Both the position numbers and the translations under genes were made by a program. 64,000 nucleotides of DNA from Aequorivita sp. (GTDB lineage Bacteria; Bacteroidota; Bacteroidia; Flavobacteriales; Flavobacteriaceae): assembly GCA_024637015.1 (NCBI GenBank), contig JAGXGE010000026.1:146077-210076 (forward strand). Reading direction: 5' to 3'. Positions within the stretch are counted from its first letter, which is position 1, and each line of letters starts with the position of its first letter. Of the stretch, positions 7,903 through 26,956 are shown piece by piece. The notes below the pieces were generated by a model. It saw only the letters and a list, made by a program, of their open reading frames with translations. It did not search any database and was not told where the DNA came from.

Positions 7903-8817
7903 ATGATCAATTTAAATATCAACGACGAGATTTCAAGATTGCGTGCCGTAGTGCTGGGGCGCGCAGATAGCAATGGCCCAATTCCAAAACTTGAAAATGC
8001 CTATGATCCAAAATCTGCCGAGCACATTAAGGCAGGCACTTACCCCAAAGATGAAGATATGGTATTGGAAATGGAAGCCGTAGCAGCTGTTTTCAAAAAA
8101 TATGATGTTAAGGTTTATAGACCCCATTCCATAAAGGATTATAACCAAATCTTTTCTCGGGATATCGCTTTTGTTATTGATGATAAATTTATAATTGCAA
8201 ATATTCTCGAAGACCGTTCTATGGAAATTGAGGCTATTGAACATGTTATCAATCAAATTGACCCTTCAAAGATTATAGAATTTCCTGAAAATGCACATAT
8301 TGAGGGTGGCGATGTTATGCCCTGGGGCGATTATATTTTTGTTGGGGCTTATTATGGTGACGATTATTCAAGTTTTATTACTGCACGAACAAACATGAAT
8401 GCTGTGAAGCATCTTCAGAAATTGTTTCCGCATAAAAAAGTGAAATCCTTCAATCTTAAAAAAAGCAATACTGTTGCCGATGAAAATGCCCTGCACTTAG
8501 ATTGCTGTTTTCAGCCTTTGGGTAAGGGAAAAGTAATAATCCACAAAGAAGGGTTTTTGATTGAGGAAGAGTATGAATGGCTCATTAATTTCTTCGGAAT
8601 AGAAAATTGTTTTCATATCACAAAGCAGGAAATGTATAATATGAACAGTAATATTTTCTCCATTTCGCCAGACGTTGTCATTTCAGAAAAAAACTTCACA
8701 AGATTGAATGCCTGGCTCCGTAAACAAGGTTTTACCGTAGAAGAAGTGCCTTATGCTGAAATTTCCAAACAGGAAGGGTTGCTTCGTTGTACTACGATGC
8801 CCTTAATTAGAGATTAA
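7903..8817 (+). CDS. Dimethylarginine dimethylaminohydrolase / arginine deiminase-like protein
   Basis: A 304-residue member of the amidinotransferase/arginine deiminase fold. Members cleave or transfer guanidino groups (DDAH makes citrulline and dimethylamine; others deiminate arginine). The catalytic set is visible: Glu134 and Asp137 in HIEGGDVM, His198 in LHLDCC, and nucleophile Cys296 in LLRCTTMP near the C-terminus. Substrate cannot be told from the sequence alone. It follows the gltA terminator and stands alone. Striking context: the last ~150 bases of this gene recur as decayed copies at 22268-22430 and 26797-26956, behind two large secreted-protein genes, so this gene's 3' end marks the left edge of an accessory island. 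Confidence 0.85.
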   Translation: MINLNINDEISRLRAVVLGRADSNGPIPKLENAYDPKSAEHIKAGTYPKDEDMVLEMEAVAAVFKKYDVKVYRPHSIKDYNQIFSRDIAFVIDDKFIIANILEDRSMEIEAIEHVINQIDPSKIIEFPENAHIEGGDVMPWGDYIFVGAYYGDDYSSFITARTNMNAVKHLQKLFPHKKVKSFNLKKSNTVADENALHLDCCFQPLGKGKVIIHKEGFLIEEEYEWLINFFGIENCFHITKQEMYNMNSNIFSISPDVVISEKNFTRLNAWLRKQGFTVEEVPYAEISKQEGLLRCTTMPLIRD

Positions 8818-8896
8818 AATATTTTTTTTATTTAAAATACTTTCTGCAGAAAACAAAAATTTAGTTGTGCTTCTATTATTTCTGAATATAATACAA

Positions 8897-9310
8897 TCAG
8901 AAAACTAGTATAAAATTACAGCTCATTATCAGATCTTTAAAAACCAACTCACTTTCTCCTGTTTTAGGGTTGTAAACTGTGAGTTTTGCTAGTGTAAATC
9001 CAAATAATAAGCGCCCATTTTTGAGTGTTATTATGGGGCTTTGTTCTGTAATATTAATTCGGTTTGCAAATTCAGGTAGTAATGTTGTATGTCCATCTCG
9101 CAGCCTTATTTTAACTAATGATTCGTTAACGGTGTATGCATATTCCTTATTTAAATCCATAGTAAAAAAACGGGCTCCATCTAAGGGTACCGTGGTTTCA
9201 CTATAATCACTCCATAATTCAAGTTCCCTTTCCGCAGAACTATTTTCTCAGAATTCACCGTTCGTATATAATCAATATTTCCCAAATAGACTAGGTAGCG
9301 GGCACACATG
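8897..9310 (-). pseudogene. Decayed minus-strand gene remnant, function unknown
   Basis: An open stretch of 87 codons (9160 down to 8897) reads like real protein (MDLNKEYAYTVNESLVKIRL, then NITEQSPIITLKNGRLLFGF). The same frame continues upstream with ELELWSDYSETTVPLDGARFF and then meets a stop near 9245, beyond which another frame gives ARYLVYLGNIDYIRTVNSEK. This pattern of coding-like sequence broken by a stop and frame change suggests the end of a dead gene, perhaps of a propeller-type secreted protein. I do not recognise the family. It lies in the ~1 kb of debris after the DDAH-like gene. Confidence 0.4.
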
Positions 9311-9531
9311 TTGTTATTTCAAAAAAAGCAATCCCGATGAGCAAAGCGATGCGCACGTAACTTCTTAAGCGATTGCAAATCATATAATTACCCTTCGATA
9401 AACAAATTTCTCTCTTCGGACACTAATTAAGTGCGTTCGTCCTAAAGCGTTTTCAATTTTCTTTGACTATCAGTTATTTAGATGCTCCCCCCAACTTTTA
9501 TTTCAAATAACCATTTAAATCATTCAAAATT

Positions 9532-9645
9532 TTGAAAAGTGTACTCTTTTTTGGATTTGCAATATTCCTTTCAATGTCCACTTGCCAAAAACAAGAAAAG
9601 TGGTATACCCAACAATCGCCAGAAATTGAAACTTATAACCAGTAA
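9532..9645 (+). pseudogene. Truncated lipoprotein remnant
   Basis: A frame from TTG 9532 gives 37 codons: (M)KSVLFFGFAIFLSMSTCQKQ..., a lipoprotein signal peptide with lipobox ending in Cys, then EKWYTQQSPEIETYNQ and a stop. The mature part resembles the start of small flavobacterial lipoproteins of the SnoaL/NTF2-like kind, but it is far too short to be functional. The stop and the coding-like debris downstream suggest a gene broken in the island. Confidence 0.35.
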
Positions 9646-9660
9646 ATAATCCCTACACAA

Positions 9661-9845
9661 TGAAGCAAAAAATTGTTACTGAACTTGGGCTTTTGGATAT
9701 AGAAAAAATCATCTCAGACTTGGAAGTATAGCAATTAAGAACAGAATGTACTTCAAAAAACATGGATAGTGATGTCCAATTTTGATAAAGAATTAGAAAA
9801 CCATACAAATTATATTCAAGCTGAATTAAAGAAAAAAATTAACTA
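9661..9845 (+). pseudogene. Frame-broken remnant after the lipoprotein stub
   Basis: ATG 9661 opens 23 codons (MKQKIVTELGLLDIEKIISD...) ending in TAG; the same frame resumes with QLRTECTSKNMDSDVQF to another stop, and a different frame finishes with DKELENHTNYIQAELKKKIN. The pieces look like one short helical protein broken by stops and a frameshift. Family not recognised. The rest of 9311-9531 shows nothing I can name. Confidence 0.3.
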
Positions 9846-9866
9846 ACCAGTTTAAATTTTGCAATT

Positions 9867-10352
9867 ATGAAATCGAAAATCACACCAATCGTTTCTTCCC
9901 TATCTATTTTAATCTTCTTTCTAGGTGCAGCCGTTCTGGCGCAATCTCCAATGCAGGTAGCTCCAAAAATGCAGCAAGTAAAAGCAATACCTGCCCAAGA
10001 GGAAATGGAAGTGCCAGCAACTGAAAATGTACCAAAAGCTAACGTTTCAAAAACAGTTGATAAAACTTCAGAAATGCAAGTTGCTCCTATGGCAGATCTT
10101 ACAGATCCAAAACAAGCCGCTATTGAAAAAAAGCGTTTACAAGCACAGCTTAAAAAATTGGAAGCTCAAGAAGCACAAAGTGCAGCAGCTAGAAAAGAGC
10201 GTGATAAGATAACTGTTCTGGTAAAGAAAAGATTAGAGCGCTCAAACAGTAAAAAGCAAATCCAATCTAATACAAAAGGAGCTTTGCAAAAAAGTAATGC
10301 AGCACAAGAAGCTTCAGGGAAAGCTGAATCCAAAGACAAGAATGGTCAATAG
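9867..10352 (+). CDS. Small secreted coiled-coil protein, unknown function
   Basis: A 161-residue protein I cannot assign. It has a signal peptide (about residues 1-26, ending VLAQ), a Pro/Val/Met-rich segment with MQVAP occurring twice (about residues 29 and 70), then a highly charged Ala/Glu/Lys/Gln helix from about residue 80 to 125 that should form a coiled coil, and a Lys/Ser/Asn-rich tail. There is no T9SS sorting domain, so it is probably periplasmic. It lies 55 bases upstream of the giant subtilase with no terminator between, so the two are likely co-transcribed; a chaperone, anchoring or inhibitor role toward that protein is possible but only inferred. Confidence 0.7.
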   Translation: MKSKITPIVSSLSILIFFLGAAVLAQSPMQVAPKMQQVKAIPAQEEMEVPATENVPKANVSKTVDKTSEMQVAPMADLTDPKQAAIEKKRLQAQLKKLEAQEAQSAAARKERDKITVLVKKRLERSNSKKQIQSNTKGALQKSNAAQEASGKAESKDKNGQ

Positions 10353-10407: not shown

Positions 10408-13400
10408 ATGAAAAACCTCACCTTTTTATTTATATTCACCTTTTTCTGTAATGTAGTCTCGGCACAACAAAAACATTCGGTTGAATTTCAAGGAATAACA
10501 ATCGAAATGCCAGAAAATATAAAGGGCTTCCAATGGGCTAATCTTCCCAAATCTGCACAACTAGCGAATGGTTATGTAGGTTGGATTCAGTTTTATGAAA
10601 TTCCGCAACAAAACGTTCAAGATCGTTTCAAAAATCGAAATTTTGACCTTTTAGAGTATATAGGAAACAAAACCTATTTGTTTTATACCACAGGTTCAAA
10701 TGGCGTACAATTTCTGCGAAATAACGGGGTGCGTTCGATAATTCCAGTACAGGGAAACACGAAACTTTCAGAGAATTTACGCAACGGGAATATTGAGCCC
10801 TATGCCATACAAGGCGATAAGCTCTTGGTAACCTTAGAACACAATACCTTAGTAAGTACAAACTTTGTAATAAGTGATTTGGCTGAAAAGCAAATTTCTG
10901 TCGCTCAACAATACAAAGCCACTAATATTATAGATTTAATAATCCCTAACAACTGTTTGGATGCACTTGCAGAATTACCGTACGTGAAGTGGGTGGAACT
11001 TATTGTAGCCCCATCTGTACCAGACGATACAAGAGGTAGAAATCTTCACCGCGCTAGTGGTTTGGACACACAAACCTCTGCAGGTAGAAACTATACAGGC
11101 GATGGCATAGGAGTTATGGTTCGCGACGATGGTATTGTAGGCCCTCATATTGATTTTCAAGGTAGAATTGACAATAGTAACGCAACAGGTACCGGGCAAA
11201 CACACGGTGATGGTGTAGGAGGGATTATGGCAGGCGCTGGAAATTTAAACCCTTCTATTAGAGGTATGGCTGCAGGATCTGACGTTTTTGTGGTGAATTA
11301 TCAACCCAATTTCTTGGACACAGCAACCACCACTCTTATTAATGATGGGAGTGTTCAAATTACCAACTCTTCCTATAGTAACGGATGTAACGCCGGCTAT
11401 ACAACCATTACCCGAACGGTAGATACGCAAACACACGATATTACTTCCTTGCTACACGTCTTTTCTGCTGGTAACTCGAACAATAATGAATGTGGATACG
11501 GAGCCGGAAACCAATGGGGAAATATAACAGGCGGACATAAACAAGGAAAAAATGTCATTACAACGGCCAATGTGTTTTTTGATGGTACGCTTGTAAATTC
11601 AAGCAGTAGAGGGCCTGCGCACGACGGTAGAATAAAGCCAGATATTACTGCAAATGGACAAAACCAACTTTCAACAAGCGAAAACAATGGCTACCTTACT
11701 TTTGGAGGAACCTCGGGTGCTGCTCCAGGAATTGCAGGAGTTTCTGCTCAGTTATACGAAGTATATGGAGACGCCAACGGAGGTACTTTCCCGCCTTCTG
11801 GCCTTGTGAAAGCAACATTGCTAAATACTGCAAACGACTACGGAAATGTGGGCCCAGACTACAAGTTTGGTTGGGGTATTGTAAATGGTTTACGCGCTGC
11901 CAAACTTCTGGAAGACAACCGCTATTTAACAAGTTCTATCTCTCAAGGAACTACAAACACGCATAGTATTTCTGTGCCTTCTGGTACTACGCAAGTACGA
12001 TTTATGGTGTACTGGACAGATGAGCCTGCTACAAGTGGTGCCACTACAGCATTGGTAAACGATTTAGACCTTGTAGTCACAGCCCCTTCCTCTACACCGT
12101 ATGAGCCATGGATCTTGGATCCAACACCTAATCCTATAAACTTGGACGCACCAGCAACCAACGGTCCAGATCACCTTAATAATGTAGAACAAGTTCTAAT
12201 TAATAATCCTGCTGCTGGAACTTATAATCTAGATGTTTCTGGATTTAGTGTGCCCATGGGGCCACAAGAATATTTTGTAGTATACGAAATGATTGAAGAG
12301 GAGTTAACCCTTACATATCCAAATGGTGGCGAAAAATTTGTACCGGGTACTGTAGAAACTATTCATTGGGATGCCATAAATACTACAGATAGCTTTACAA
12401 TAGAATATTCTATAGATAATGGAGGTTCTTGGACTCCAACCACTACAGTTCCAAATACAACAACCAATATAGACTGGACAGTACCTTCACAAATTACAGG
12501 GGATGCATTAATTAGAATTACAAGTGGAAGTTTTCAGGATGTAAGTGATGTAAAATTTTCGATCGCTACTCAGCCAACCGGTTTACAATATACTATCGTA
12601 TGTCCGCAAAGTGCAAATTTTTCTTGGAATGCTGTTGCTAACGCAGAATTATATGACGTCTATTTATTAGGTGCTGAAACAATGGAAGTAGCAGGCACTA
12701 CTTCGAACACTTTTATAAGTGTGCCTATTGTAAATGGCGAAGAACCACTATGGGCTGCTATAGTTGCAAAAAACGCTACTCAAGGTTGGGAAAGCAGAAG
12801 GACAATAGCTATTAATAACACAGGATTTCTTAACTGTAGTCTTTCAGATGATATTGGGATTGAAATACTAAATACTCCATCGGATTTTGAATTGGAATGT
12901 TCTGGGGGGTCAGAGGTGACTATTTCGGTACGACTTCAAAGTTTTGGATCACAACCTCAAAGTAACTTTACCTATTCATATCAGTTAGATGATGGAGCTA
13001 TCATACAAGAAACATATACAGGAACGCTTGCAAGTGGTCAAAATGTTACGATTGATTTTGGGACTCCGCTAACATTTCTTGCAAATGGAAATTACACCCT
13101 AAATACCGCAGTAAATTTAGCTGGAGATGAAAACCCATTCAATGATACAGACACATTAGATTTCTTTATGACTTTAGAGCCTACGGCCTTAGATTTTGAA
13201 GAAACTTTTGAAACCAACGGTTTCCCTCCAAGTGGATGGACACTTAATAACCCAGATAATTCCACAACTTGGCAACAACGTGATAATGTAGTTGGAAGTG
13301 ATGGAACTACAACTACAACCGCCTTTATGGATGGTGCGAATTATTCTGCAAGTGGACAATTAGATACCTTCACATTAGAGTATATTGATTTACAAGGAGC

Positions 13401-16400
13401 GACAGGAACCTCACTAAGTTTTGATTTGGCGAAAGCACAATGGTCAACAGCTTACAATGATAGACTCGAAGTTGAAATTTCTATCGATTGTGGTGCAACC
13501 TTTACGAATATCTATAGTAAAGATGGTCTAACGCTAGCCACGGTACCCTACATTAACGCTGCTTGGACACCAAGTTCTTCTTCAGATTGGAGAACTGAGA
13601 ATTTGAGCCTAGCAGCATATGAAGGACAAATTGTCCAAATTCGGTTTATTAATGTGAATGACTATAGTAATAATACGTTTATAGATAATATAAAAGTAGA
13701 TGGCATTGTTATCAATCAAGAACCTACAAGAGTATCACTAGCTGGTGGGGAACTTTTAATTGAAGATATAGTAGATAAAGACGATACACTTACTATTACT
13801 TATGGAGGAGGCATATATACCATAACCGATACGAATGGAGGCTTTATAAATACTATGGTTCCAGGAAGTATGGGGGACGGCACAGCTACTGTGACAATAC
13901 CAGAAGCCGGTGTAACCAGTATTTTGGTAAACACCATAGGTGGTGATGACTTACTTACAGTAGATTATTCCGGTGGAAACTTTGCTGTTCCAATTGCCTA
14001 TAATGGCGGAACACATACAAACGTACCAGGGGATTTAATGATGCTATCTGGAGGACCTACATTCACTGGAGTGACTCATACTTTTGTGAATGCTAACGAC
14101 GGTAGTGTAGCTGTGGCTGGAAACGGCTTACTTACCTATACAGGTTTAGAGCCTATTGTAGATAACTTAAGTGCTACAGATAGAGTATTTAACTTTACAG
14201 GCGGCGCCGAGACCATTACATTAGATAATGGGGGTACCTTAGTCAATCAAATAGACTCAACGCTAGGGGAGAGTGTCGATTTTAACAACCCAAGTGGCTC
14301 TTTAACCATTAATACAGAAGTTGGGGTAGGTACAGGAGCAGATATTTTAAATATTGAAGGGCTGGATGCAAACTTTGATGCAGATTTAACAGTAAATAGC
14401 GGTAATGATGACAACGTAAATTTCCTATTGAATCCAACAGCTATAGCTTCAGGAGATATTGCTGTAACTACAGGAATTCTGAACATTAGCCAAGACATTG
14501 CCACCACAGGAAATATAAACCTAACTTCAGAAAGAAATACAACTATAAATAACAACGCAACACTATCTATTACAGATGGAGCTATTACTATGCTAGCTGG
14601 AACCACTCCAGTTGTTGGAGATGTTTATAAGGGAATTTTACTAGAAAACGGAAACCTTAGTGCTACCTCAGGAGCTATTACACTTACAGGTACAGGCAGT
14701 AATGATGGTGTAAGTAGCAGAACCCAAGGTGTTTTTGTTACAGGAGCTTCTTTACTAGAAACAACTACAGGAGAGATTACAATTACAGGAACAGGGGCAT
14801 CCTCTGGATTAGATAGAATGTCTGGTATTCGAATAAACGATAATGCAGCCAATGCAGCTATATTACGATCTGTAGATGGAACTATTACTTTAAATGGGAC
14901 AGGAGGAAATGGAACAAGTGACTTTAATGTAGGAGTAGTTATTGACGGTTTAAACCCTATACAATTAACAGGGAATGGATCTCTAGATGTTACTGGGCAA
15001 GGAGGTGCGGGAGCTCAAGCTAATTATGGTATTGGTATACAAACGGCAACTGTATCAGTGGCAGATGGTACCATTACCCTAAATGGAACTTCGGGTAACG
15101 GCAGCAGTAATTTTCAAGCAGGAGTATCCATTGGTTTTGATGCTTCTTTGCAAATTTCTGGACCTGGAGCAATGAACATTACTGGTTCAGGAGGAAATGG
15201 TGTAGATGCCGGTTATGGCGTCTATGTTTTTAACAATGCAAGTTTATCAGTTTCAAGTGGAGCTATCAATTTAATTGGAACTGCAGCCAATGGAACAGGT
15301 AATTTTAATTCAGGAGTAAACATAAGTACGGGAGCTACTATAGAGGCCACAGGAAATGGTGCTATTACTATAACAGGTACAGGAGCTGCTGGAGTACAAA
15401 ATAATCGAGGAGTTCTTTTAGGAGAAACATCCATTACAACTGCAGGAGGAGGCACTTCCATTACTGGACAAGGAGGAACGGGTGATTTAGGTGTCACTGG
15501 GATTATAATTTTTGATAGTACAACAATTGCAGATACAGCTGATGGTGCTATTGTGCTTAATGGCACTGCGGGCGTAGGTATTCAGCAAAATTCGGGGGTA
15601 TTATCTCTTGGAACCATACAGTCTTTTGATGGACCTATCTCCATTACAGGGGTTGGGAATGGAACCGCTAATAATAACCAAGGTGTTGCTTTAAGAGATA
15701 CAGCTTTAATTGAAAATTTAGGTGAAGGTTCAATTTTAATAGATGGCCAAGCTGGAAATGGAAATGACCTATTCAATATTGGTGTTTTAAGTTCAGGAAC
15801 TGTAAGATCTATAGATGGTGGTATAACAATTATAGGCCAAGGAAATGGAACCAATAATGAAAATCACGGTATTAACATTTTTGAAAATGGTCTAGTTGAA
15901 AGCACTGGGGATGGCGCTATATCTTTTACAGGTACAGGCGCAAATGGTTTTAGAGAGAATATTGGTATTCTACTTGATGGAGTAGCACCACGGGTTTTGT
16001 CATACAATGGTGCTGTTACATTTAATGGTGTTGGAGGTAATGCTACTGATAATTTTAATTCAGGGGTTGCCCTCGAAGAAGGAGCAACTATTGCTTCCTC
16101 AGGAACTGGAGCCATCACCTTAAATGGTACAGGTGTAAACGGCTTTAGTGGAAACAACGGTGTTGTCATAGAAGGAACAACTACTTCGGTTGCCTCAAAT
16201 GGTGGTGGTATTTCAATGACTGGTACTGGTGGTACTGGTGGTGGTAATCTTAATGTTGGGATACGAGTAGATGGAGCTACTATACTAGATCTAAGTAGTA
16301 CAGGCAGTATATCTATAGATGGAACAGGAGGTTCCAGTAGTGATGTATCAGTTGGAGTGTTCTTTAGAGCAGACGCTTCTATTATAACCAATGGTGGTGG

Positions 16401-19400
16401 AATAGCTATGATTGGGCAAGGAGGATCTGGCCCTGGTGATTTTAATGCTGGAATTATGACTCAAGAAACAGTAACAATTACTGATACTGCAATGGGTGAT
16501 ATTTCACTTAATGGAACAGGAGGCTCAGGAGTCAATACTGCTGGAGGTATATTTTTATATAACACCGCTGTAACCTCTGTAGATGGATCTCTTTCTGCAA
16601 TTGGTATGGGAGGAACGGGAACTGAAGATTATGCTAATGGAATCTATATGCAAGATTCAGCATTAGATACTGGTTCGGGTAACATAACGCTAGACGGTAC
16701 AGGTGGTGCTGGTGATGCTTTAAATTCAGGAATACTTTCATTTACGTCCTCTTTTAATACTACCGATGGTGCTATTCAAATGACTGGAGAAGCGACCGAC
16801 GTTACAGGTGATTTCAACCAAGGAATTGGACTTGTTGATAATTTAATTGAGGCTACAAACGGTGCTATTAGTTTAGTAGGTACTTCTGGTGACGCCGCCA
16901 ATCCTGGGATAGAAATTGCTTCTACAAATAGTCCAATTACTGCAGGCTCTACGATTACAGTAACTACCAATGTTGGTGTTTTAAATACACCAGAAGGAAT
17001 ACCAGCGACGGCAGTATTTGAAGCTGCCACTACTAGTATTAATGGAACAATTGCACCTGGGCCATCTGTGGCATATGCTGTAACAAATACTATTGGACAA
17101 ACGACTATAACTGGTGATTTTGACTTAACTGCGGGTTCTTTGGAAGTAGAAATAGAAAATCTTACAATTGCAGGAATAGATTTTGACCAAATAGTAGTTA
17201 ATGGTTTAGTAGATATTACGGGTGCTACTTTAACGCTGGTTGATAATTTTGCTGGCGTAGGAACTCCATCTGATGTTATAATCCTTATTGACAATGATGG
17301 AGTAGATGCGGTTACAGGAACCTTTACGGGGCTTCCAGAGGGTGCGTCAATTAATTTTAATGAAGAAACCTGGTTTATATACTATGCAGAAGGAGATGGA
17401 AACGATGTGGCACTTCGTTTTAGACCCATCAACATACTAGTAGATGCAGGTGGAAACCTCGTTTTTACAGATATAGTAGGAGAAGACGATGAACTAACCA
17501 TTATAAAAGAAGGAACTAATTATCGTATAAGCGACCCTAATAAACCAGTAATTGCTGGAGAAGGCGCTATACAAGATGGCGATGAAGTAGTAGTTCCTAT
17601 CGCTTCGGTTACTGGAGACATTAATATCAATACATTAAATGGAGATGATAGTTTAAACGTGGACCTTGATGGAGGAGATTTTGAAGATACAATCAACTAT
17701 AATGGTGGAAATCAAAACACCAGCCCAGGAGATAGTATGCTATTGTCGTCCGCTGGAATGTATACAAATGTTACGCACAATTTTATAAATGAAAGTGACG
17801 GATTCGTAGATGTAACAGGAAATAATACAATTAATTATACAGGGCTAGAACCTATACTTGATAACTTAAATGCAGCCGACAGGGTATTTAATTTTACCGG
17901 AGGTGCAGAAACCATCACAGTAAATGCTGGTGGGACACTGGATAACCAAATAGACTCCACCTTAGGGGAGAGTGTAGATTTTAACAATCCAACAACCTCC
18001 TTAACCATTAATACAGAAGTTGGTGGGGGTTCAGGAGCAGATACTGTAAATATGGAAGGCATTGCGCTAGGCTTTGATGCAGACTTAACAATTAATGGCG
18101 GTGCAGATGATGTGGTAAATTTCCAAACCAACCCAACGGCTATTGGTACAGGAAATTTAACTGCTACTGGATTAGGTATTTTTGTTTTCCAAAATATAAC
18201 CACAAGTGGTCTTGGAGCTATCGATTTTACAGCAAATAGAAATATATACGTACAGCCTTTAGCTACAGTTTCTTCACAAGATGGAGCTATCACATTTATA
18301 GCCAATAGCTCTGGTGCTTTGTCAGCAACACAGGATTTTGATGCTATCTTAATTAATGGTGAAGTGAATACCTCAGGAACCGGATCGATTGACTTTACAG
18401 GGAATGGAGGCAGTACAGGAGCAACAGAATTTAATATAGGAATTGCCGTGGAGGGCGCCAATGCTAAAGTTGAAACAACGGGAACAGGCGCCATTACGAT
18501 GACAGGAACGGGAGGTTCTGGTAGTAGCAACAATTCAGGTGTTATGGTAAGCTTTGGAGGTCTTATAGCAGCCAATGGTAGCGCAATTGATATTACCGGG
18601 AATGGTGGAAGTGATGGATTTGGCATACATAATATTGGTGTAAGATTGCGTGTTAATGGTACTATTTCAAATACTGGAGCTGGAACTATTTCATTAAATG
18701 GAACTGGTGCAGATAATGGAAACAGCAATTATGGAGTTCAGGCTTTGGGAGGATCTATTGTTTCTGCAGTAAACGGGGAAATTACGCTGAATGGAACTGG
18801 AGGAAATGGTGCACATGCCAATCAAGGATTACGCATTGAAGGTGCTGGGACGAAAATTACAACCATTGATGGCGGAATAACCCTAAACGGAACAGGAGGA
18901 AACGCTACAGGCAATAACAACGAAGGCGTAACCATTATATTAGATGCGCTAATTGAAGCCACAGGCTCGGGCGCAATAAACATAACAGGAAATGCAGTAA
19001 GTGGATTAAATTTAAACAAAGGTGTTGTCTTTTTTAATGCAGATATGAGTTCTGCAGGAGGAGGCATCACTATTAATGGAACCGGTGGAGGAACCAACAA
19101 TAATAATTTAGGTATTAGTATTGAAGGTGGATCTGTTATAGAAGATACTCTTGATGGAAACATATCATTAACAGGTTCGGGAGCAGCAGGTGTTGATTTT
19201 AATATTGGAGTTGATATCACTGGAGGAAGTTTTATTCGAATAAACGATGGAGATATAAGCATTATGGCTACTGGTGGTAATGGAACTGGAAATAACAACT
19301 TAGGTCTTAGAAATAGTGGTGGCTCAATTATCGAAGCTACAGGAATGGGCTCAATTAACCTTGTAGGTGAAGGAGGGAATGGTACAGACTATAATGATGG

Positions 19401-22158
19401 TGTTCGCATTGAAAATTCTTCATCAGTTACTGCAACGACAGGTGGTATAAACATTCAAGGAATTGGTGCTACTGGAAGTGTTGGCGAAGCAAACATGGGA
19501 GTCAATATAGCATCTAATAGTAGCATTATTGCGAGTTCCACAAATAATATTAGTATAGAAGGTACAGGTGGTTCGGGTACGCAATTTAACCGCGGAATTG
19601 TATTTTCTTTCAATTCAATTACGTCAAGTGGTGGTAATATTGATATCATAGCAACAGGTGGAACAGGAACAGGAAATTTTCAAGTAGGACTAACTGCTTT
19701 TCCAGGAACCTCCATTAATACCAATGGTGCTGGTACAATCGGTATTTTAGGAACTGGAGGAGTAGGCCCAACGACCTTGGATACTGGGATAGAATTAATT
19801 GGAACGACGCAGATAACTTCAGAAAACGGTGCTATTACAATCGATGGTGTCGCAGTAGATGGCTCAATAGGAAATAGAATTGAAGCGACTATTACAGCAA
19901 CAGGTACGGGAAATGTTTTCTTAAACGGAACAACTACAAGTGCCACTCAGGCTGCAATCAATATTTTAAATGATAACACAACAATTACTGCCGGAGGAAA
20001 CATAACCGCAACAGCCAATATAGGGAAACTAAATACCCCAGCCGAAATACCTGGGCATGCAATATTTGAAGCTACAAATACTATAATTAATGGCATTCTT
20101 GCACCCGGGCAATCTCCAGGTCAATTAACGGTAAATGGAAACTTTACAATGAGTTCCGGAGATACCGCGGAAATTGAAATAAACGCGATCACAACTCCAG
20201 GAACAGATTACGACCAAATTAAAGTTACCGGAACCGTAGATATTAGTGGTGCAACGTTATCATTAATAGATAATATTCCTGGCGTACTTGTCGAAGGAGC
20301 CGAAATCATTATCATTGCCAATGATGGTGTCGATGCGGTGGTAGGAACCTTCGACGGATTAACAACGACCACACCAATACCTTTTAACGAGCAGTTTGTA
20401 TTCGTACACTATGATGGCGGCGATGGAAATGATGTGTCACTCGTGGTAGATTCTATGCCAACAGCTATTTGCCAGGATTATACAGTTCAGGTAGATGCTT
20501 CAGGAAATGTAACTATTTTGCCGTCTGATATAGACAATGGCTCTTTTGACCCGGATGGACCTGTTACCCTATCGGTAAGTCCAGACACCTTTGATTGTAG
20601 CGCAGCGGGCATTCCGCAAATTGTTACCTTAACCGTGACAGATAACACCGGAAATACAGATACCTGTGAAGCTACGGTAACCATAGAAAAGCGTCCTACA
20701 ACGCTAACATATAGCGGAGATCTTGTAGAACAGTATTCCGATCAAGTAGACCTATCGGCCACCTTGGTGGATGTAGATGGAATCTCTTTAGAAGGCAAAA
20801 CGGTATCCTTTACTATTGGAACGCAATCCATAACTGCACTCACCGATATAAATGGTCTCGCCGAAGCCACCTTGATCTTAACACAAGACCCTAACATAAC
20901 TTATACGGTAGCAACTGAATTTATAGAAGATGATTGTTACTTAGGTAGTACAGTTTCAGTTGATTTCGACATAACCCAGGAAGATGCGATTGTAGCATAT
21001 ACAGGACAAACATTACAAGCAACCCCTAGTGAAAACGAATCTGAAGCGCTTGTCGTTCTAAGTGCCAACATACAGGACATCACGGTAACCGATTTTGCAA
21101 ACGATCCTTTTGAAGGGGATATTCGCAAGGCAATGGTGATGTTTGTGAAAAGACTAGACAATGGTGGTATCGAGGATATTTCAGGTTGGCTCCCTGTTGA
21201 AAACCTTATCGATCCAAACGATCCTACAACGGGAACCGTTAGTTATGATTGGATGGTTGACCTACAAAACCAAGATTCCGAAAGCTTTACCGTAGGAATA
21301 CTCGTGGGGTCTTTGGACGACAATGGGTATTATCTCAGGGATGATTCCGATGATTATACGGTAGTTACGGTATACAAGCCAGTGGGTGACTTTATCACGG
21401 GCGGTGGAAATATTATTCCAGATAATTCAGCTGGACAATATGCTTCTACAGATGGATTGAAAACCAATTTCGGGTTCAACGTTAAATTCAATGCTGGTGG
21501 TCGTAGACTAAAAGGACATATGAACGTGATTTTTAGAATACTTGAAGTAGACGGGGTTCATACCTATCAAATAAAAGGAAACGCCATACAATCCTTAGGG
21601 GTGGATGTAGGAGATCCTGCTAATAAAATAGCAGAGTTTATTACCAAGGCGAACCTTAAGGACATCACCGACCCTAATAACCCTATAAGTTTAGGGGGTA
21701 ACCTATTGCTCAAGGCAGACATGACAGATAAAGGTGAACCTGGGGATGCTGACTCCATCGGTCTTACCCTTACAACATCCAATGGAGAATTACTATACTC
21801 TAGTGATTGGACTGGAATTGAAACCCAGGAGATGGTTCTTGCTGCTGGAAATATAGTTGTACATAGTGGCTTTAGCTCTAAAGGGTTATTATACACCGAT
21901 GATATGGCGCTAACCTTAGCTGGAATTAGTTTGTATCCAAACCCTGCCAAAGAGCAGGTAACAATTGGTAATTCAAATAATCTGGAGCTTGATGAAGCCG
22001 CCATTTACGATCAAAATGGTAGATTAATATACCGCATAGATCTACGAGGAATGGGCGTAACCAAGACAGTGAGCTTACAAGAAATGGCTGCCGCTACTTA
22101 CGTGGTGATCATTAAAGGTAAAGATGGAGAGATTACCAAACGATTATTGAAAGAATAG
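10408..22158 (+). CDS. Giant T9SS-exported subtilase with beta-helix repeat body
   Basis: A 3916-residue secreted protein. After a signal peptide (1-20) comes an S8 subtilisin-like protease domain with Asp240 (RDDG), His266 (THGDG) and Ser436 (GGTSGAAPG), and its beta-sandwich cap (about 510-630). Next are a Kre9/Ser-Thr-rich-type module with PNGGEKF (about 635-718) and a MAM-like segment (about 928-1098). The body is two related halves (about 1110-2345 and 2346-3348), each with a shared leader followed by Gly/Thr/Asn-rich ~32-residue repeats of the form GVxI...GxIxLxGTGGxG, probably a long right-handed beta-helix. Then follow a HYR-like module (3352-3428), an Ig-like module (3430-3528), a VGDFITGGG module (from about 3660) and a type A T9SS sorting domain (from about 3836, ISLYPNPAKEQ). 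Probably a surface protease-adhesin. The last third is shared with the M36 protein downstream. Confidence 0.88.
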   Translation: MKNLTFLFIFTFFCNVVSAQQKHSVEFQGITIEMPENIKGFQWANLPKSAQLANGYVGWIQFYEIPQQNVQDRFKNRNFDLLEYIGNKTYLFYTTGSNGVQFLRNNGVRSIIPVQGNTKLSENLRNGNIEPYAIQGDKLLVTLEHNTLVSTNFVISDLAEKQISVAQQYKATNIIDLIIPNNCLDALAELPYVKWVELIVAPSVPDDTRGRNLHRASGLDTQTSAGRNYTGDGIGVMVRDDGIVGPHIDFQGRIDNSNATGTGQTHGDGVGGIMAGAGNLNPSIRGMAAGSDVFVVNYQPNFLDTATTTLINDGSVQITNSSYSNGCNAGYTTITRTVDTQTHDITSLLHVFSAGNSNNNECGYGAGNQWGNITGGHKQGKNVITTANVFFDGTLVNSSSRGPAHDGRIKPDITANGQNQLSTSENNGYLTFGGTSGAAPGIAGVSAQLYEVYGDANGGTFPPSGLVKATLLNTANDYGNVGPDYKFGWGIVNGLRAAKLLEDNRYLTSSISQGTTNTHSISVPSGTTQVRFMVYWTDEPATSGATTALVNDLDLVVTAPSSTPYEPWILDPTPNPINLDAPATNGPDHLNNVEQVLINNPAAGTYNLDVSGFSVPMGPQEYFVVYEMIEEELTLTYPNGGEKFVPGTVETIHWDAINTTDSFTIEYSIDNGGSWTPTTTVPNTTTNIDWTVPSQITGDALIRITSGSFQDVSDVKFSIATQPTGLQYTIVCPQSANFSWNAVANAELYDVYLLGAETMEVAGTTSNTFISVPIVNGEEPLWAAIVAKNATQGWESRRTIAINNTGFLNCSLSDDIGIEILNTPSDFELECSGGSEVTISVRLQSFGSQPQSNFTYSYQLDDGAIIQETYTGTLASGQNVTIDFGTPLTFLANGNYTLNTAVNLAGDENPFNDTDTLDFFMTLEPTALDFEETFETNGFPPSGWTLNNPDNSTTWQQRDNVVGSDGTTTTTAFMDGANYSASGQLDTFTLEYIDLQGATGTSLSFDLAKAQWSTAYNDRLEVEISIDCGATFTNIYSKDGLTLATVPYINAAWTPSSSSDWRTENLSLAAYEGQIVQIRFINVNDYSNNTFIDNIKVDGIVINQEPTRVSLAGGELLIEDIVDKDDTLTITYGGGIYTITDTNGGFINTMVPGSMGDGTATVTIPEAGVTSILVNTIGGDDLLTVDYSGGNFAVPIAYNGGTHTNVPGDLMMLSGGPTFTGVTHTFVNANDGSVAVAGNGLLTYTGLEPIVDNLSATDRVFNFTGGAETITLDNGGTLVNQIDSTLGESVDFNNPSGSLTINTEVGVGTGADILNIEGLDANFDADLTVNSGNDDNVNFLLNPTAIASGDIAVTTGILNISQDIATTGNINLTSERNTTINNNATLSITDGAITMLAGTTPVVGDVYKGILLENGNLSATSGAITLTGTGSNDGVSSRTQGVFVTGASLLETTTGEITITGTGASSGLDRMSGIRINDNAANAAILRSVDGTITLNGTGGNGTSDFNVGVVIDGLNPIQLTGNGSLDVTGQGGAGAQANYGIGIQTATVSVADGTITLNGTSGNGSSNFQAGVSIGFDASLQISGPGAMNITGSGGNGVDAGYGVYVFNNASLSVSSGAINLIGTAANGTGNFNSGVNISTGATIEATGNGAITITGTGAAGVQNNRGVLLGETSITTAGGGTSITGQGGTGDLGVTGIIIFDSTTIADTADGAIVLNGTAGVGIQQNSGVLSLGTIQSFDGPISITGVGNGTANNNQGVALRDTALIENLGEGSILIDGQAGNGNDLFNIGVLSSGTVRSIDGGITIIGQGNGTNNENHGINIFENGLVESTGDGAISFTGTGANGFRENIGILLDGVAPRVLSYNGAVTFNGVGGNATDNFNSGVALEEGATIASSGTGAITLNGTGVNGFSGNNGVVIEGTTTSVASNGGGISMTGTGGTGGGNLNVGIRVDGATILDLSSTGSISIDGTGGSSSDVSVGVFFRADASIITNGGGIAMIGQGGSGPGDFNAGIMTQETVTITDTAMGDISLNGTGGSGVNTAGGIFLYNTAVTSVDGSLSAIGMGGTGTEDYANGIYMQDSALDTGSGNITLDGTGGAGDALNSGILSFTSSFNTTDGAIQMTGEATDVTGDFNQGIGLVDNLIEATNGAISLVGTSGDAANPGIEIASTNSPITAGSTITVTTNVGVLNTPEGIPATAVFEAATTSINGTIAPGPSVAYAVTNTIGQTTITGDFDLTAGSLEVEIENLTIAGIDFDQIVVNGLVDITGATLTLVDNFAGVGTPSDVIILIDNDGVDAVTGTFTGLPEGASINFNEETWFIYYAEGDGNDVALRFRPINILVDAGGNLVFTDIVGEDDELTIIKEGTNYRISDPNKPVIAGEGAIQDGDEVVVPIASVTGDININTLNGDDSLNVDLDGGDFEDTINYNGGNQNTSPGDSMLLSSAGMYTNVTHNFINESDGFVDVTGNNTINYTGLEPILDNLNAADRVFNFTGGAETITVNAGGTLDNQIDSTLGESVDFNNPTTSLTINTEVGGGSGADTVNMEGIALGFDADLTINGGADDVVNFQTNPTAIGTGNLTATGLGIFVFQNITTSGLGAIDFTANRNIYVQPLATVSSQDGAITFIANSSGALSATQDFDAILINGEVNTSGTGSIDFTGNGGSTGATEFNIGIAVEGANAKVETTGTGAITMTGTGGSGSSNNSGVMVSFGGLIAANGSAIDITGNGGSDGFGIHNIGVRLRVNGTISNTGAGTISLNGTGADNGNSNYGVQALGGSIVSAVNGEITLNGTGGNGAHANQGLRIEGAGTKITTIDGGITLNGTGGNATGNNNEGVTIILDALIEATGSGAINITGNAVSGLNLNKGVVFFNADMSSAGGGITINGTGGGTNNNNLGISIEGGSVIEDTLDGNISLTGSGAAGVDFNIGVDITGGSFIRINDGDISIMATGGNGTGNNNLGLRNSGGSIIEATGMGSINLVGEGGNGTDYNDGVRIENSSSVTATTGGINIQGIGATGSVGEANMGVNIASNSSIIASSTNNISIEGTGGSGTQFNRGIVFSFNSITSSGGNIDIIATGGTGTGNFQVGLTAFPGTSINTNGAGTIGILGTGGVGPTTLDTGIELIGTTQITSENGAITIDGVAVDGSIGNRIEATITATGTGNVFLNGTTTSATQAAINILNDNTTITAGGNITATANIGKLNTPAEIPGHAIFEATNTIINGILAPGQSPGQLTVNGNFTMSSGDTAEIEINAITTPGTDYDQIKVTGTVDISGATLSLIDNIPGVLVEGAEIIIIANDGVDAVVGTFDGLTTTTPIPFNEQFVFVHYDGGDGNDVSLVVDSMPTAICQDYTVQVDASGNVTILPSDIDNGSFDPDGPVTLSVSPDTFDCSAAGIPQIVTLTVTDNTGNTDTCEATVTIEKRPTTLTYSGDLVEQYSDQVDLSATLVDVDGISLEGKTVSFTIGTQSITALTDINGLAEATLILTQDPNITYTVATEFIEDDCYLGSTVSVDFDITQEDAIVAYTGQTLQATPSENESEALVVLSANIQDITVTDFANDPFEGDIRKAMVMFVKRLDNGGIEDISGWLPVENLIDPNDPTTGTVSYDWMVDLQNQDSESFTVGILVGSLDDNGYYLRDDSDDYTVVTVYKPVGDFITGGGNIIPDNSAGQYASTDGLKTNFGFNVKFNAGGRRLKGHMNVIFRILEVDGVHTYQIKGNAIQSLGVDVGDPANKIAEFITKANLKDITDPNNPISLGGNLLLKADMTDKGEPGDADSIGLTLTTSNGELLYSSDWTGIETQEMVLAAGNIVVHSGFSSKGLLYTDDMALTLAGISLYPNPAKEQVTIGNSNNLELDEAAIYDQNGRLIYRIDLRGMGVTKTVSLQEMAAATYVVIIKGKDGEITKRLLKE
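14632..16915 (+). repeat. First array of ~32-residue coding repeats
   Basis: About 25 tandem imperfect units with a period near 95-96 bases encode the pattern x-G-[VI]-x-[VIL] then G-x-[IL]-x-[LIM]-x-G-T-G-G-x-G. They form the beta-helix-like body of the giant subtilase, first half. The count comes from the recurring GV/GI-x-[IVL] step and is approximate. Confidence 0.75.
18345..19795 (+). repeat. Second array of ~32-residue coding repeats
   Basis: About 16 units of the same ~96-base period in the second half of the giant subtilase. The non-repeat leader upstream (about 17856-18060) is a clear duplicate of 14160-14370, e.g. both encode FNFTGGAETIT and QIDSTLGESVDFNNP, so the halves arose by internal duplication. 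Confidence 0.75.
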
Positions 22159-22190: not shown

Positions 22191-22220
22191 AGCCCGAGGA
22201 ACTTCCTCGGGCTATTTTTT
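22191..22220 (+). terminator. Intrinsic terminator after the giant subtilase gene
   Basis: AGCCCGAGGAA pairs perfectly with TTCCTCGGGCT around a single C, followed by a T-rich tract. The same hairpin recurs after the M36 gene at 26715. Confidence 0.9.
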
Positions 22221-22267
22221 ATTTGATTTTCAGATTATTTCTTGAACCAAACCTCTAGACTTTGAAT

Positions 22268-22430
22268 ATCGCCTTTCAATATCTTTTCAGGAATAAACTT
22301 CAAATGATTAATTACTTGGTTACCCGAACAAGGTTTTACGGTAGAAGAAGTGCCTTATGCTGAAATTTCCAAACAGGAAGGATTATTGCGTTGTACTACC
22401 ATGCCTTTGGTTCGTGACCCAATGAGCTAA
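22268..22430 (+). pseudogene. Decayed 3' fragment of the DDAH-like gene (copy 2)
   Basis: From about 22268 to the TAA at 22428-22430 the sequence aligns with the last ~150 bases of the gene at 7903-8817. The best-kept part (22329 on) encodes QGFTVEEVPYAEISKQEG then LLRCTTMPLVRD plus PMS before the stop; the catalytic Cys codon is kept. Upstream of 22330 the match decays. It has no start and no catalytic core, so it cannot be functional. It sits 55 bases beyond the terminator of the giant subtilase gene. Confidence 0.85.
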
Positions 22431-22612
22431 GTTTTTCTTACCATCTATTAAAATAATCTCATTTTATAATAATTTGTCTAGGATTGACTACTTAAAACTG
22501 TGGCTTTTGGGAAAAACTTTTTTAGAGCTAAAAAAATTATTAAATAGTGTGACTAGTTTCTATCACATTCTTGCTTAAAAACAGATAACGCAACCAATAG
22601 CTTCTAAGTGTA

Positions 22613-22680
22613 ATGGGCGTGATCAAAACTGTGAGTATACAAGAACTGCCAGTTACTAATTTTTTAATAAAAATTCCTTT
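22613..22680 (+). pseudogene. Relic of a T9SS C-terminal sorting domain
   Basis: One frame reads MGVIKTVSIQELPVTNFLIK, matching the tail shared by the subtilase and M36 proteins (MGVTKTVSLQEMAAATYVVI). No open frame leads into it. It is most simply the remains of a third gene of the same type, lying between DDAH fragment copy 2 and the M36 gene. Confidence 0.55.
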
Positions 22681-23129: not shown

Positions 23130-26100
23130 ATGAAACAGTTTACAATTCTCTTGATGTTGTTTTGTATGCCAGTTATTCAGCTTTCTGCACAGAACAAAAA
23201 CCCAGAAAAAGAAAATCAACAGAAAACGGAAGAGCAGTCTTCTATTTCTCTTGAAAATCTTATTATGCAAAAAAGTAATACTTATGTGATTACTAAAGAA
23301 CATGTTAGCAGCATTAGTGGCATTCGTCATGTTTATTTGAGACAAGCCATTGATGGATTGGAAGTTTGTGGAACCGAATCCAGTGTGCATTTTGACAAAA
23401 CCGGAAAAGTGTTAACCGAACACAATAAGTTTTTGGCAGATATACAGGCCACTCTTAAAAATAGTTCACAGAGTTTAAGTGCTCGTGCCGCTATTATTTC
23501 GGTAGCAAACCAAATGGGATACAAAATTTCTAATCTTCAGGAAATAAAAAGTATCGGAGGTATAAACAAAGCTGCAGTTTTCAATAAAGCAGATATATCT
23601 TTGGAAAATATACCCGCCAAATTGATGTATTATTATAAAGAAGGCATTGGCACCCAATTGGTGTGGGAGCTTTCCATAGCTGAGAAAAATTCTTCGGATT
23701 GGTGGAATTTTCGAGTAGATGCATCCACTGGCCAAATTATTGACAAAGATAATTGGACAAGTGAGTGTGTAATTGAACACAATCATGATAATGAAGTAAT
23801 AGGTTTGAATTACAATTCAAATCTTTTTGATATTCCTAATTATAATAAACCTGCTACAAATTCTGTAATTCTTAATGAAGTAGATGGTATTGGAACCTAT
23901 AATGTGTACCCCATGCCAATTGAATCTCCATATTTTGGATCCAGATCATTAGTTGTAGGCCCAGAGAATGCCATTGCCTCTCCTTTTGGGTGGCATGATA
24001 CAGATGGTGTGATAGGTGCAGAGTTCACAAACACTAGAGGTAATAATGTTAGCGCTTGGGACGATGAAGATGCAAATGATTTACCTGATGGTGCATATAC
24101 TGTTAGTCCAGGAGGAGATTTAGTTTTTGATTTCCCATTAAATACTACTTATTCCGCTGGCGATCAATCTACGGATGCCGCAACTACTAATTTGTTTTAT
24201 TGGAACAACATTATTCATGATGTTATGTATCAATACGGTTTCGATGAGGCAGCGGGTAATTTTCAAGAAAATAACTATGGTAATGGAGGCTTAGGTGGAG
24301 ATTCTGTAAATGCATTAGCGCAAAGTGGATTGGGTACTTGTAATGCTAATTTTGGAACACCAGCAGATGGGAGTAATCCTAGAATGCGAATGTACGTATG
24401 TAATACAGAGGATGGTGATTTAGATAATTGGGTCATAATCCATGAATATGGGCACGGAATTCATAGTAGATTAGCTACTACAAGTGGAGCAGAGCGAATG
24501 AATGAAGGTTGGGGAGACTATTATGGTTTAATGCTCACTATGCAATCCTCAGATGTTGGTACAACGGGTAGAGGATTTGGAAGTTTTGCTTTTCAATTTG
24601 TTTTTCCTGGTACAGGTGGCGCTAGAACACAGCCCTACAGTACGGATTTTTCAATTAACAATTATACTTATGATAGTATAAAATCCGAAGTTGCTCCCCA
24701 TGGAGTTGGGTCGGTTTGGGCCATGATGCTTTGGGAAATGACATGGGAGCTTATTGAAATTCATGGTTTTGACACCGATTTTTATAATGGTACAGGAGGT
24801 AATAATATCTCACTAGCTTTAGTTACAGAAGGCCTAAAATTACAAGTTCCCGACGCAGGGTTTGTGGATGGTCGAGACGCAATTTTGTTAGCAGACCAAG
24901 TTATGTATGGTGGAGCCAATCAATGTGCAATTTGGGCAGCATTTGCAAGAAGAGGTTTAGGGGTAAGCGCAGATCAAGGCTCCTCAGCAAGCAAAACTGA
25001 CGGCACCGAAGCTTTTGATGTTCCAAATCCACCCGTGGCTGTTTGTGTAGCTCCTTTTGCAATTATGGTCGATTCCAACGGAGATGCAGTTATTACTGGT
25101 GCCGATATTGATGGAGGAAGTATTGCTCCTTGTGGAATTGATACCATTATAGCGAGCCCAAATTCATTTACCTGTGCAGATGTGGGTGATCATGTAGTAA
25201 CTTTGACCGTTACCGATATATTTGGATTTGAGAGTACCTGTACCACGGCTGTTACCGTTGAAAAGCGGTCAACAACCGTTACTTATACAGGCGATATAGA
25301 GGGGCAATGTACTGACCCAATAGATCTCTCTGCGACCTTGGTTGATGTAGATAATATTCCATTATCTGGTAGAACTATCACTTTTACTCTTGGAACCCAA
25401 TCTACAACAGCAAACACAGACGGAAGTGGCGTAGCTTCAACAACAATGATATTAGATCAAGAACTAGGAAATTATACGGTAAAAGCTGAATTTATGGAAG
25501 AAGCCTGTTACCTGGGAAGTTTTGATGAACCTGCTTTTGAAATCCTAGGTGAAGATGCTATTGTTGAATATACCGGACATACAGTACAAGCAACACCCGA
25601 TGAGAATACTTCTGAAACTACTGTAGTCCTAACTGCAAATATTCAAGAAGTGTTCGATGACTATCCTGGAGATATTAAGGATGCGCTGGTTAAATTTGTG
25701 AATAGAGATGATGGCACGGACATATCCGGATGGATTCCTGTGACCGATCTTTTAGATCCAAGTGATCCAACACTAGGAACGGTTAGCTATGATTGGTTGG
25801 TTGATATTGGAAATTCGTCATCAGACTCCTTCACAGTAGGGATAATTGTTGGAGGATGTTACACCCGTAATAGTTCCGAAGACGATACTATAGTAACTGT
25901 ATATATTCCAGTAGGCGACTTTATAACCGGAGGTGGTTTTATAAACCCAGATAACTCTGCGGGAACTTATGCTTCTACCCCTGGTTTGAAAACCAATTTT
26001 GGATTTAATGTAAAATTCAATAATAGTGGCCGTAAACTGAAAGGTCATATGAATATCATCTTCCGAATTCAACAAGTAGACGGTGTTCATACCTATCAAA

Positions 26101-26687
26101 TAAAAGGGAATGCAATTCAATCTCTTGGCGTGGATATTGAAGACCCAAACAATATGTTGGCAGAATTTGCAACTAAAGCTAATTTAACGGATATCACTGA
26201 TCCATTAAATCCAATAGGCCTTGGTGGGAATCTTAGATTAACGGTTGATATGACAGATAGAGGTGAGCCAGGAATAGACGATTCCATTGGTATAAATCTA
26301 ACTACTGCCAACGGTATATTATTATATTCAAGTAATTGGTCTGGGATTGCTACTGAAGAAATGGTTCTTTCTGGAGGAAATCTTGTTGTACATAGTGGTT
26401 TTAGCTCTAAAGGGTTATTATACACCGATGATATGGAGCTAAATTTAGCTGGAATTAGTTTGTATCCAAACCCTGCCAAAGAACAGGTGACCATCGAAAA
26501 TTCACAGAACTTAGAGCTTGAAGAAGCCGCCATTTACGATTTAACGGGTAGATTATTACACTGTATAGATCTGCGAGGAATGGGCGTAACCAAGACAGTG
26601 AACTTACAGGAACTGGCTGCCGCTACTTACGTGGTGATCATTAAAGGTAAAGATGGACAGATAATCAAGCAACTGTTGAAGGAATAG
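23130..26687 (+). CDS. Secreted M36 (fungalysin-type) metalloprotease with T9SS sorting domain
   Basis: A 1185-residue zinc endopeptidase. The signal peptide (1-20) is followed by an FTP/PepSY-type propeptide (about 40-210), then the M36 catalytic domain with zinc ligands His438 and His442 and catalytic Glu439 in HEYGH, and probable third ligand Glu459 in NEGWGDYY. From about residue 645 come a HYR-like module, an Ig-like module (KRSTTVTYTG), the VGDFITGGG module and a type A T9SS sorting domain (ISLYPNPAKEQ). This C-terminal ~540 residues is homologous to that of the giant subtilase, and the last ~300 bases plus the terminator are especially similar. It should degrade protein outside the cell and feed the peptide-uptake genes just downstream. 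Confidence 0.93.
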   Translation: MKQFTILLMLFCMPVIQLSAQNKNPEKENQQKTEEQSSISLENLIMQKSNTYVITKEHVSSISGIRHVYLRQAIDGLEVCGTESSVHFDKTGKVLTEHNKFLADIQATLKNSSQSLSARAAIISVANQMGYKISNLQEIKSIGGINKAAVFNKADISLENIPAKLMYYYKEGIGTQLVWELSIAEKNSSDWWNFRVDASTGQIIDKDNWTSECVIEHNHDNEVIGLNYNSNLFDIPNYNKPATNSVILNEVDGIGTYNVYPMPIESPYFGSRSLVVGPENAIASPFGWHDTDGVIGAEFTNTRGNNVSAWDDEDANDLPDGAYTVSPGGDLVFDFPLNTTYSAGDQSTDAATTNLFYWNNIIHDVMYQYGFDEAAGNFQENNYGNGGLGGDSVNALAQSGLGTCNANFGTPADGSNPRMRMYVCNTEDGDLDNWVIIHEYGHGIHSRLATTSGAERMNEGWGDYYGLMLTMQSSDVGTTGRGFGSFAFQFVFPGTGGARTQPYSTDFSINNYTYDSIKSEVAPHGVGSVWAMMLWEMTWELIEIHGFDTDFYNGTGGNNISLALVTEGLKLQVPDAGFVDGRDAILLADQVMYGGANQCAIWAAFARRGLGVSADQGSSASKTDGTEAFDVPNPPVAVCVAPFAIMVDSNGDAVITGADIDGGSIAPCGIDTIIASPNSFTCADVGDHVVTLTVTDIFGFESTCTTAVTVEKRSTTVTYTGDIEGQCTDPIDLSATLVDVDNIPLSGRTITFTLGTQSTTANTDGSGVASTTMILDQELGNYTVKAEFMEEACYLGSFDEPAFEILGEDAIVEYTGHTVQATPDENTSETTVVLTANIQEVFDDYPGDIKDALVKFVNRDDGTDISGWIPVTDLLDPSDPTLGTVSYDWLVDIGNSSSDSFTVGIIVGGCYTRNSSEDDTIVTVYIPVGDFITGGGFINPDNSAGTYASTPGLKTNFGFNVKFNNSGRKLKGHMNIIFRIQQVDGVHTYQIKGNAIQSLGVDIEDPNNMLAEFATKANLTDITDPLNPIGLGGNLRLTVDMTDRGEPGIDDSIGINLTTANGILLYSSNWSGIATEEMVLSGGNLVVHSGFSSKGLLYTDDMELNLAGISLYPNPAKEQVTIENSQNLELEEAAIYDLTGRLLHCIDLRGMGVTKTVNLQELAAATYVVIIKGKDGQIIKQLLKE

Positions 26688-26714
26688 TTCTTCATAATTA
26701 TTGATTGTTAAAAA

Positions 26715-26744
26715 AAAGCCCGAGGAATTTCCTCGGGCTTTTTT
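26715..26744 (+). terminator. Intrinsic terminator after the M36 gene
   Basis: AAAGCCCGAGGAA pairs perfectly with TTCCTCGGGCTTT around one T, followed by a T-run; nearly the same hairpin as at 22191. Confidence 0.9.
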
Positions 26745-26796
26745 ATGTGCTTTTCAAACTATTTATTGAAACAAACCTTTAAACTTCGGTTATTGG

Positions 26797-26956
26797 TTTT
26801 ATTTCTCCTTTCATTGTCATTTCAGAAAAAAACTTTATAAGATTGAATACTTGGCTTCGCGAACAGGATTTTACGGTAGAAGAGGTGCAATACGCCGAAA
26901 TTTCCAAACAGGAAGGCTTGCTTCGTAGTACTACCATGCCTTTGGTTAGGGATTAG
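26797..26956 (+). pseudogene. Decayed 3' fragment of the DDAH-like gene (copy 3)
   Basis: From about 26797 to TAG 26954-26956 this aligns with the 3' end of the gene at 7903-8817. It encodes a TWLREQDFTVEEVQYAEISK stretch, then QEGLLRSTTMPLVRD and the stop. The codon for the nucleophile Cys is now Ser (AGT). There is no start. It lies about 53 bases after the M36 terminator and ends 177 bases before the DPP IV start, so it forms the right edge of the island. Confidence 0.87.

Follow-up and report, generated by a model that had tools for sequence, protein, structure and literature searches.

The stretch of Aequorivita sp. DNA analysed here, called the window throughout (64,000 nt; positions 146,077 to 210,076 of contig JAGXGE010000026.1, assembly GCA_024637015.1), carries a gene for a DDAH-like protein whose 3' end recurs behind each of two large protease genes, and these recurring gene ends are the subject of this report. 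The genome, which was placed in Aequorivita by homologues and named genome loci, is a draft of 39 contigs and 3.2 Mb, and the interval between the DDAH-like gene and the DPP IV gene lies inside a 210-kb contig (C39). The order of genes is the intact DDAH-like gene (7903..8817, 304 residues, Pfam ADI), an open reading frame (ORF) of 161 residues (9867..10352), a subtilase S8 gene (10408..22158, 3916 residues, Pfam Peptidase_S8 and Por_Secre_tail), an M36 fungalysin gene (23130..26687, 1185 residues, Pfam Peptidase_M36, FTP and Por_Secre_tail), the DPP IV gene as the right-hand core neighbour (27110..29323, Pfam DPPIV_N and Peptidase_S9), and two POT-family transporters. Both S8 and M36 end in a sorting domain of the type IX secretion system (T9SS) and form the cargo of what we call units 1 and 2, respectively; each gene is followed by a terminator-like GC hairpin with a T run (22191..22221 in unit 1 and 26709..26739 in unit 2; repeat D17, inverted repeat I1). 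The genes from DDAH to DPP IV, like the hairpins, gene ends and spacer described below, are on the + strand. The DPP IV and transporter genes (27110-32746) come after the secreted proteases, and all of these together could constitute a peptide-scavenging module.

The repeat search returned a single 176-nt family (D3) with copies at 8662, 22266 (73%) and 26801 (81%). The reference copy, tail 1, is the functional DDAH 3' end (8662..8817), and the last ~155 bp of the gene recur behind S8 as tail 2 (22266..22430) and behind M36 as tail 3 (26797..26956). Whole-genome BLAST with the tail found exactly three places, with E-values of 2e-90, 1e-32 (tail 2) and 2e-40 (tail 3), which rule out chance similarity. 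The recurrence behind two T9SS genes and their terminators had been claimed in an earlier note on this DNA, and repeat search, BLAST, Por_Secre_tail matches and hairpins all bear it out; translation likewise confirmed its reading of the catalytic codon, with Cys retained in tail 2 (LLRCTTM) and Ser in tail 3 (LLRSTTM), and neither displaced copy has a DDAH 5' part, as the note also held. Tail 2 contains an in-frame stop and small indels. Tails 1 and 3 have in common a 22-bp identical stretch near the border, which is degraded in tail 2; tails 1 and 3 differ at 22 of 138 bases and tails 2 and 3 at 27, the latter two having one junction in common. An origin of tail 2 from a DDAH gene with a longer C-terminus was considered and rejected, no such end being present among the 120 homologues listed of 8000 scored.

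Comparison with 27 other genomes of the genus (designated by G numbers), each of which has one DDAH match, an open gene of 915 bp, indicated which of the tails is the resident one. Homology to the relatives extends from within tail 3 across a 153-bp spacer (26957..27109, including the last ~20 bp of a lost gene for a 266-residue protein, as judged by alignment with relatives) into DPP IV, and because of this contiguity with the native spacer and DPP IV, tail 3 is, on the alignment, the old resident DDAH end, now displaced. Tail 3 is nearest to genome G020 (88% over 123 bp), which is also the nearest relative over the first 759 bp of DDAH (87%); the last ~150 bp of the intact gene, tail 1, look like a replacement end and are nearest to G001 (91% over 123 bp). 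In a tree of 138 bp of the gene end, tail 1 groups with G001 (86/91), while in a tree of the 756-bp DDAH 5' part G001 groups with G019 (93/92). Four-taxon sites computed with G001 and G020 pair tail 1 with G001 and tail 3 with G020 at 7 positions, vs 1 and 0 for the other two arrangements.

The three tails, when aligned for their substitution pattern as the earlier note had recommended, proved homologous and behave as separate alleles, not as decayed copies of one sequence. Over the 138 tail positions compared, bases absent from all 27 relatives (private bases) number 0 in tail 1, 7 in tail 2 and 4 in tail 3, with none of them at a third codon position. Simulated decay (5000 runs each, with all changes placed on one copy and half of them transitions) predicts 14.7 private bases for a tail 3 derived by decay from tail 1 (4 observed) and 20.9 for a tail 2 derived likewise from tail 3 (7 observed); decay of one tail from another was ruled out by these counts. 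The differences between tails 1 and 3 fall at third positions in 15 of 22 cases (P 0.0006), and those between tails 2 and 3 in 13 of 27, a weaker indication (P about 0.05-0.06). Because private bases are few and third positions are in excess, the tails look like three functional-type alleles, of which the displaced ones were later freed from selection. Within tail 2 the 7 private changes cluster: every one falls in the first third, at gene positions 777-817, and positions 818-911 have none. Chance would give this at about 2e-4, in a test chosen after the data were seen, and the clustering points to a hybrid tail 2, part old displaced end and part newer end.

The same relatives show how variable the interval is. 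The spacer between DDAH and DPP IV is near-empty (88-216 bp) in 15 of the 27, whereas the other 12 have a longer spacer or other genes in it: 451 bp in one genome, 970-975 bp with the gene for the 266-residue protein in five, 1.7-1.9 kb with a minus-strand MgtE-like gene in five (the ORF in G024 looks shortened) and 10.3 kb in one. The 10.3-kb insert, in G004 (L055), holds an MgtE-like gene, an efflux-type operon and a two-component pair, as named by eye. By Pfam, one MgtE-like protein matches MgtE and CBS, and one 266-residue protein matches Phenol_MetA_deg, a family that we take to be of outer-membrane type. Different accessory genes thus lie between the conserved neighbours DDAH and DPP IV in different genomes, the pattern of a hotspot, and relatives with near-empty sites or other cargo, which the earlier note had suggested looking for, do exist. 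Near-empty sites as the ancestral state are doubtful: the four of the 15 that were aligned keep ~20 bp of the end of the 266-residue protein's gene, as does the sequence behind tail 3, and for this reason the near-empty state may be the product of a deletion that preceded the insertions. A second DDAH tail occurs in none of the 27 relatives. In the wider family, a 55-residue tail query matched 334 of 397 genomes, only 4 of them with more than one match, and clear extra tails were confined to the present genome; of the other three, one has a second gene of full length, one a match of 31% within another ORF, and one a 34-residue match at a contig edge, which is not judgeable. The DDAH tail is, in these comparisons, not a general island boundary, because the relatives' cargo carries no tails.

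The two units resemble each other at their right ends only. S8 and M36 have 557 C-terminal residues in common (67% identity), and the homology of the units takes in about 1.7 kb of coding sequence upstream of the tails as well as the terminator, a spacer and the tail junction; because the units share one junction, the right border was probably made once. Unit-to-unit identity is 47-75% before the sorting domain, 80-92% over sorting domain and terminator and 74-76% after them, a peak as expected from gene conversion. The T9SS sorting-domain ends and terminators at 21844-22243 and near 26370-26770 look homogenised and may be a gene-conversion module. The sorting-domain end with its terminator has matches in 21 of 28 genus genomes; the shared spacer was found only behind the S8 and M36 genes. 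On the left the units are unrelated, and only their 3' parts match.

Between tail 1 and the 161-residue ORF lies debris, much of 8818-9871 being a patchwork from two other chromosomal loci. An internal piece of a histidine-kinase gene is present in reverse (8900..9247, - strand; 68% amino acid identity over 76 residues to a kinase on contig C28), followed on the + strand by the final 158 bp of a LytTR regulator gene and its downstream leader, up to a start codon (9230..9871; 89.6% identity to C2:1524-2173 of the same genome, where the gene is of the LytTR family). Since the 158-bp LytTR end taken alone is 88.0% identical to G001 vs 86.7% to the genome's own C2, it looks like another strain's allele. 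Behind tail 2 there is a 46-bp remnant from the end of another gene with a T9SS sorting domain (22603..22648, 78% to 22041-22086), and its alignment score exceeds those of 100 shuffles; further tail remnants were sought in the debris, and none scored above shuffles. Debris and remnants look like chromosome pieces joined end to end. The 161-residue ORF, which directly precedes the giant subtilase gene, has a signal-like N-terminus, no Pfam or PHROG match and no copy in other genomes, being present only here among 59 searched. The LytTR locus itself varies in the genus: in G007 (L147:6740-8651) a gene for 536 residues stands between the LytTR regulator and a SnoaL-like lipoprotein gene where others have a short leader, a position that looks like another variable site, and in this genome and G020 a decayed 5' part of the lipoprotein gene precedes the intact gene (L141:1681-2173).

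With regard to the origin of the cargo, 14 of 25 M36 loci were chosen for comparison, 3 being skipped for early stops. In its catalytic part, M36 shows 71-72% identity to seven of the nine Aequorivita loci compared, which are 87-96% identical among themselves, and 64% to the other two; the nearest locus among those compared is that of 'Flavobacteriales bacterium 34_180_T64' (75%). The locus that usually holds a long M36 gene is reduced to end remnants in this genome and to broken pieces in G020 (L151:12233-12495 and L152:10430-11452). A plain relocation of a genus copy of M36 was not favoured, given that the home locus keeps its own remnants and that the M36 gene is divergent. Over residues 1-700, S8 reaches no more than 70% identity to copies from the genus, of which this genome has one as well, and for residues 1-900 the best other match is 45% among proteins of 0.55-1.75 times its length, shorter relatives lying outside the search. 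Because both S8 and M36 are divergent from the genus copies, both proteases look as if they were acquired from outside the genus.

The explanation that we favour, with roughly even confidence, is a stepwise insertion and stacking of the two proteases by homologous recombination at the DDAH end, integrase-free. Each incoming piece probably brought a replacement DDAH gene end and pushed the old end aside. We infer a founding join, tail crossovers and their order: one illegitimate join would first have made an arrangement of DDAH tail, T9SS gene and DDAH tail, and RecA-type crossovers between tails, within or between strains, would then have stacked the second unit. A tail-to-tail crossover would explain why tail 2 combines an old decayed 5' part with a recently functional 3' part. 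Insertion with displacement of the old end, as put forward in the earlier note, is supported by the junction of tail 3 with the native spacer and DPP IV, by the tails being separate alleles and by the existence of relatives with near-empty sites or other cargo. Homologous recombination also ends in the DDAH end of other lineages, with and without a change of cargo, which supports this route. G026 and G002, for example, are 97-100% identical through a stretch of about 1.8 kb that stops 100 bp short of the DDAH end, 82% identical within those 100 bp and mostly 73-93% beyond, with the 266-residue protein's gene present in G026 and not in G002 (fitted break at 827, log-likelihood ratio (LLR) 25.6). 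Similarly, the near-identical G007 and G015 have a DDAH end in common with G014 from about 810 (LLR 9.4-9.5).

A number of observations weigh against this explanation. No genome with one unit only, the expected intermediate, is known. Decay has gone further in tail 2 than in tail 3, which does not fit a strictly serial order unless tail 2 is a hybrid. In the tree of the 138 bp, tails 2 and 3 are not resolved; in 252 of the 351 quartets formed with all pairs of relatives, tails 1 and 3 together are the best or joint best grouping, and the separation of these tails therefore rests on the nearest relatives. Functional DDAH genes of the relatives themselves have 0-5 private bases each. The break in the comparison of this genome with G001 (fitted at 771) has an LLR of only 3.6 and is weakly placed, and with the break set at 759 and all triplets considered, G026, G015, G022 and G007 give stronger signals; among 378 pairs, this genome and G001 rank 9 by their tail-minus-rest excess. 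An LLR above 7 was reached by 18 pairs, most of which break elsewhere in DDAH, near 360. The mosaic DDAH could thus not serve as proof that tail 1 arrived with the insert, as the control showed the same signal elsewhere, and it was retained as support only. Because mosaic ends are common in other genomes, the exchange of tail 1 may not have coincided with the insertion.

The earlier note named tandem segmental duplication as the alternative, and we consider it possible, if somewhat unlikely, in a form in which T9SS gene, terminator and DDAH tail were duplicated together and the front of one protease was then replaced, with gene conversion between the copies. The 557 residues at 67%, the terminator, spacer and tail junction common to the units, and the identity peak over sorting domain and terminator, suggestive of conversion, are as such a history would leave them. 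The plain form is disfavoured since the left parts of the units are unrelated: the units are not homologous over their whole length, the catalytic families differ and a later replacement of 2-10 kb is needed, and in the simulation the tails do not derive from one sequence, tails 2 and 3 differing like separate alleles with few private bases. Quite unlikely, in our judgement, is the successive entry of two related site-specific elements at the DDAH 3' end in the manner of SGI1 at trmE, with the integrase lost or acting in trans. The same position in the gene was used twice, the reading frame and gene end were restored, the old ends were displaced and relatives have near-empty sites, all as at an attachment site, and the 22-bp stretch of tails 1 and 3 lies near the border; however, Phage_integrase (PF00589) had 9 matches in the genome and none on C39 (the genome-wide search was for this family, not for serine recombinases or transposases), and no recombinase was found among the interval proteins and debris pieces given to Pfam and PHROGs. 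Further, no other element is seen at the DDAH end in the 27 relatives and no clear one in the 397 family genomes, the cargo is chromosomal, the debris consists of chromosomal pieces, and mosaic DDAH ends are common in the genus, including relatives without tail repeats. The one junction of tails 2 and 3 and the mosaic look of tail 2 itself also count against a pure attachment-site reading. Among plasmid records there were 6 DDAH matches, all under 60% identity (Streptomyces, Bacillus), and among phage records none. It is on these grounds that the attachment-site part of the earlier proposal, as distinct from insertion with displacement, found no support. Finally, the genome is a draft of many contigs, and an assembly artefact or chance similarity might be invoked; we regard this as very improbable, as differences of about 19-27% separate the copies, which are internal to a contig of 210 kb and match with E-values of 1e-32 or better, and tail 3 joins its native neighbour.

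Riemerella anatipestifer is a related member of the phylum. It too has a chromosomal island at a fixed site, the 10K island, which unlike the present locus relies on an integrase and on a 53-bp att site within an Arg-tRNA gene (PMC6764341). SGI1-type islands at trmE are described as carrying int, xis and a mobilisation module (PMC8409611); insertion at a gene 3' end is common to both cases, but here the contig has no tyrosine-integrase match. Another parallel is found in the hotspots without mobile elements described by Oliveira et al. (2017; PMC5635113), where many accessory hotspots are reported to have no integrases and turnover is by recombination at flanking core genes; as here, variable genes stand between conserved neighbours with no recognised mobility gene and recombination ends in the flanking core gene, whereas at our locus the displaced ends of the flanking gene remain behind each inserted gene. 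Homology-facilitated illegitimate recombination, with one end homologous and the other illegitimate, has been described in E. coli conjugation and three competent species, and could make the founding arrangement, in Aequorivita by analogy only; the same source describes integration of circularised DNA by recA-dependent single crossover (PMC3240628). We class the locus as an accessory hotspot, unusual in its fossil record, and do not claim a new mobile element; the retained set of displaced gene ends is the unusual feature, within a limited literature search on that feature.

A more speculative and, on balance, unlikely extension is that the DDAH 3' end acts as an integrase-free socket in which units of gene end, secreted protease and terminator stack like cassettes. 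Under that proposal, units would leave as circles and re-enter other strains via RecA crossover between the ~150-bp gene ends, and if it is true, the displaced ends record each protease arrival. The entry of genes into hotspots is usually invisible; here the old ends persist as markers that separate alleles from copies, and insertion order and route can be tested through more strains. For the organism itself, the presence of two secreted proteases beside DPP IV and two POT-type transporters would suggest selection for peptide scavenging.

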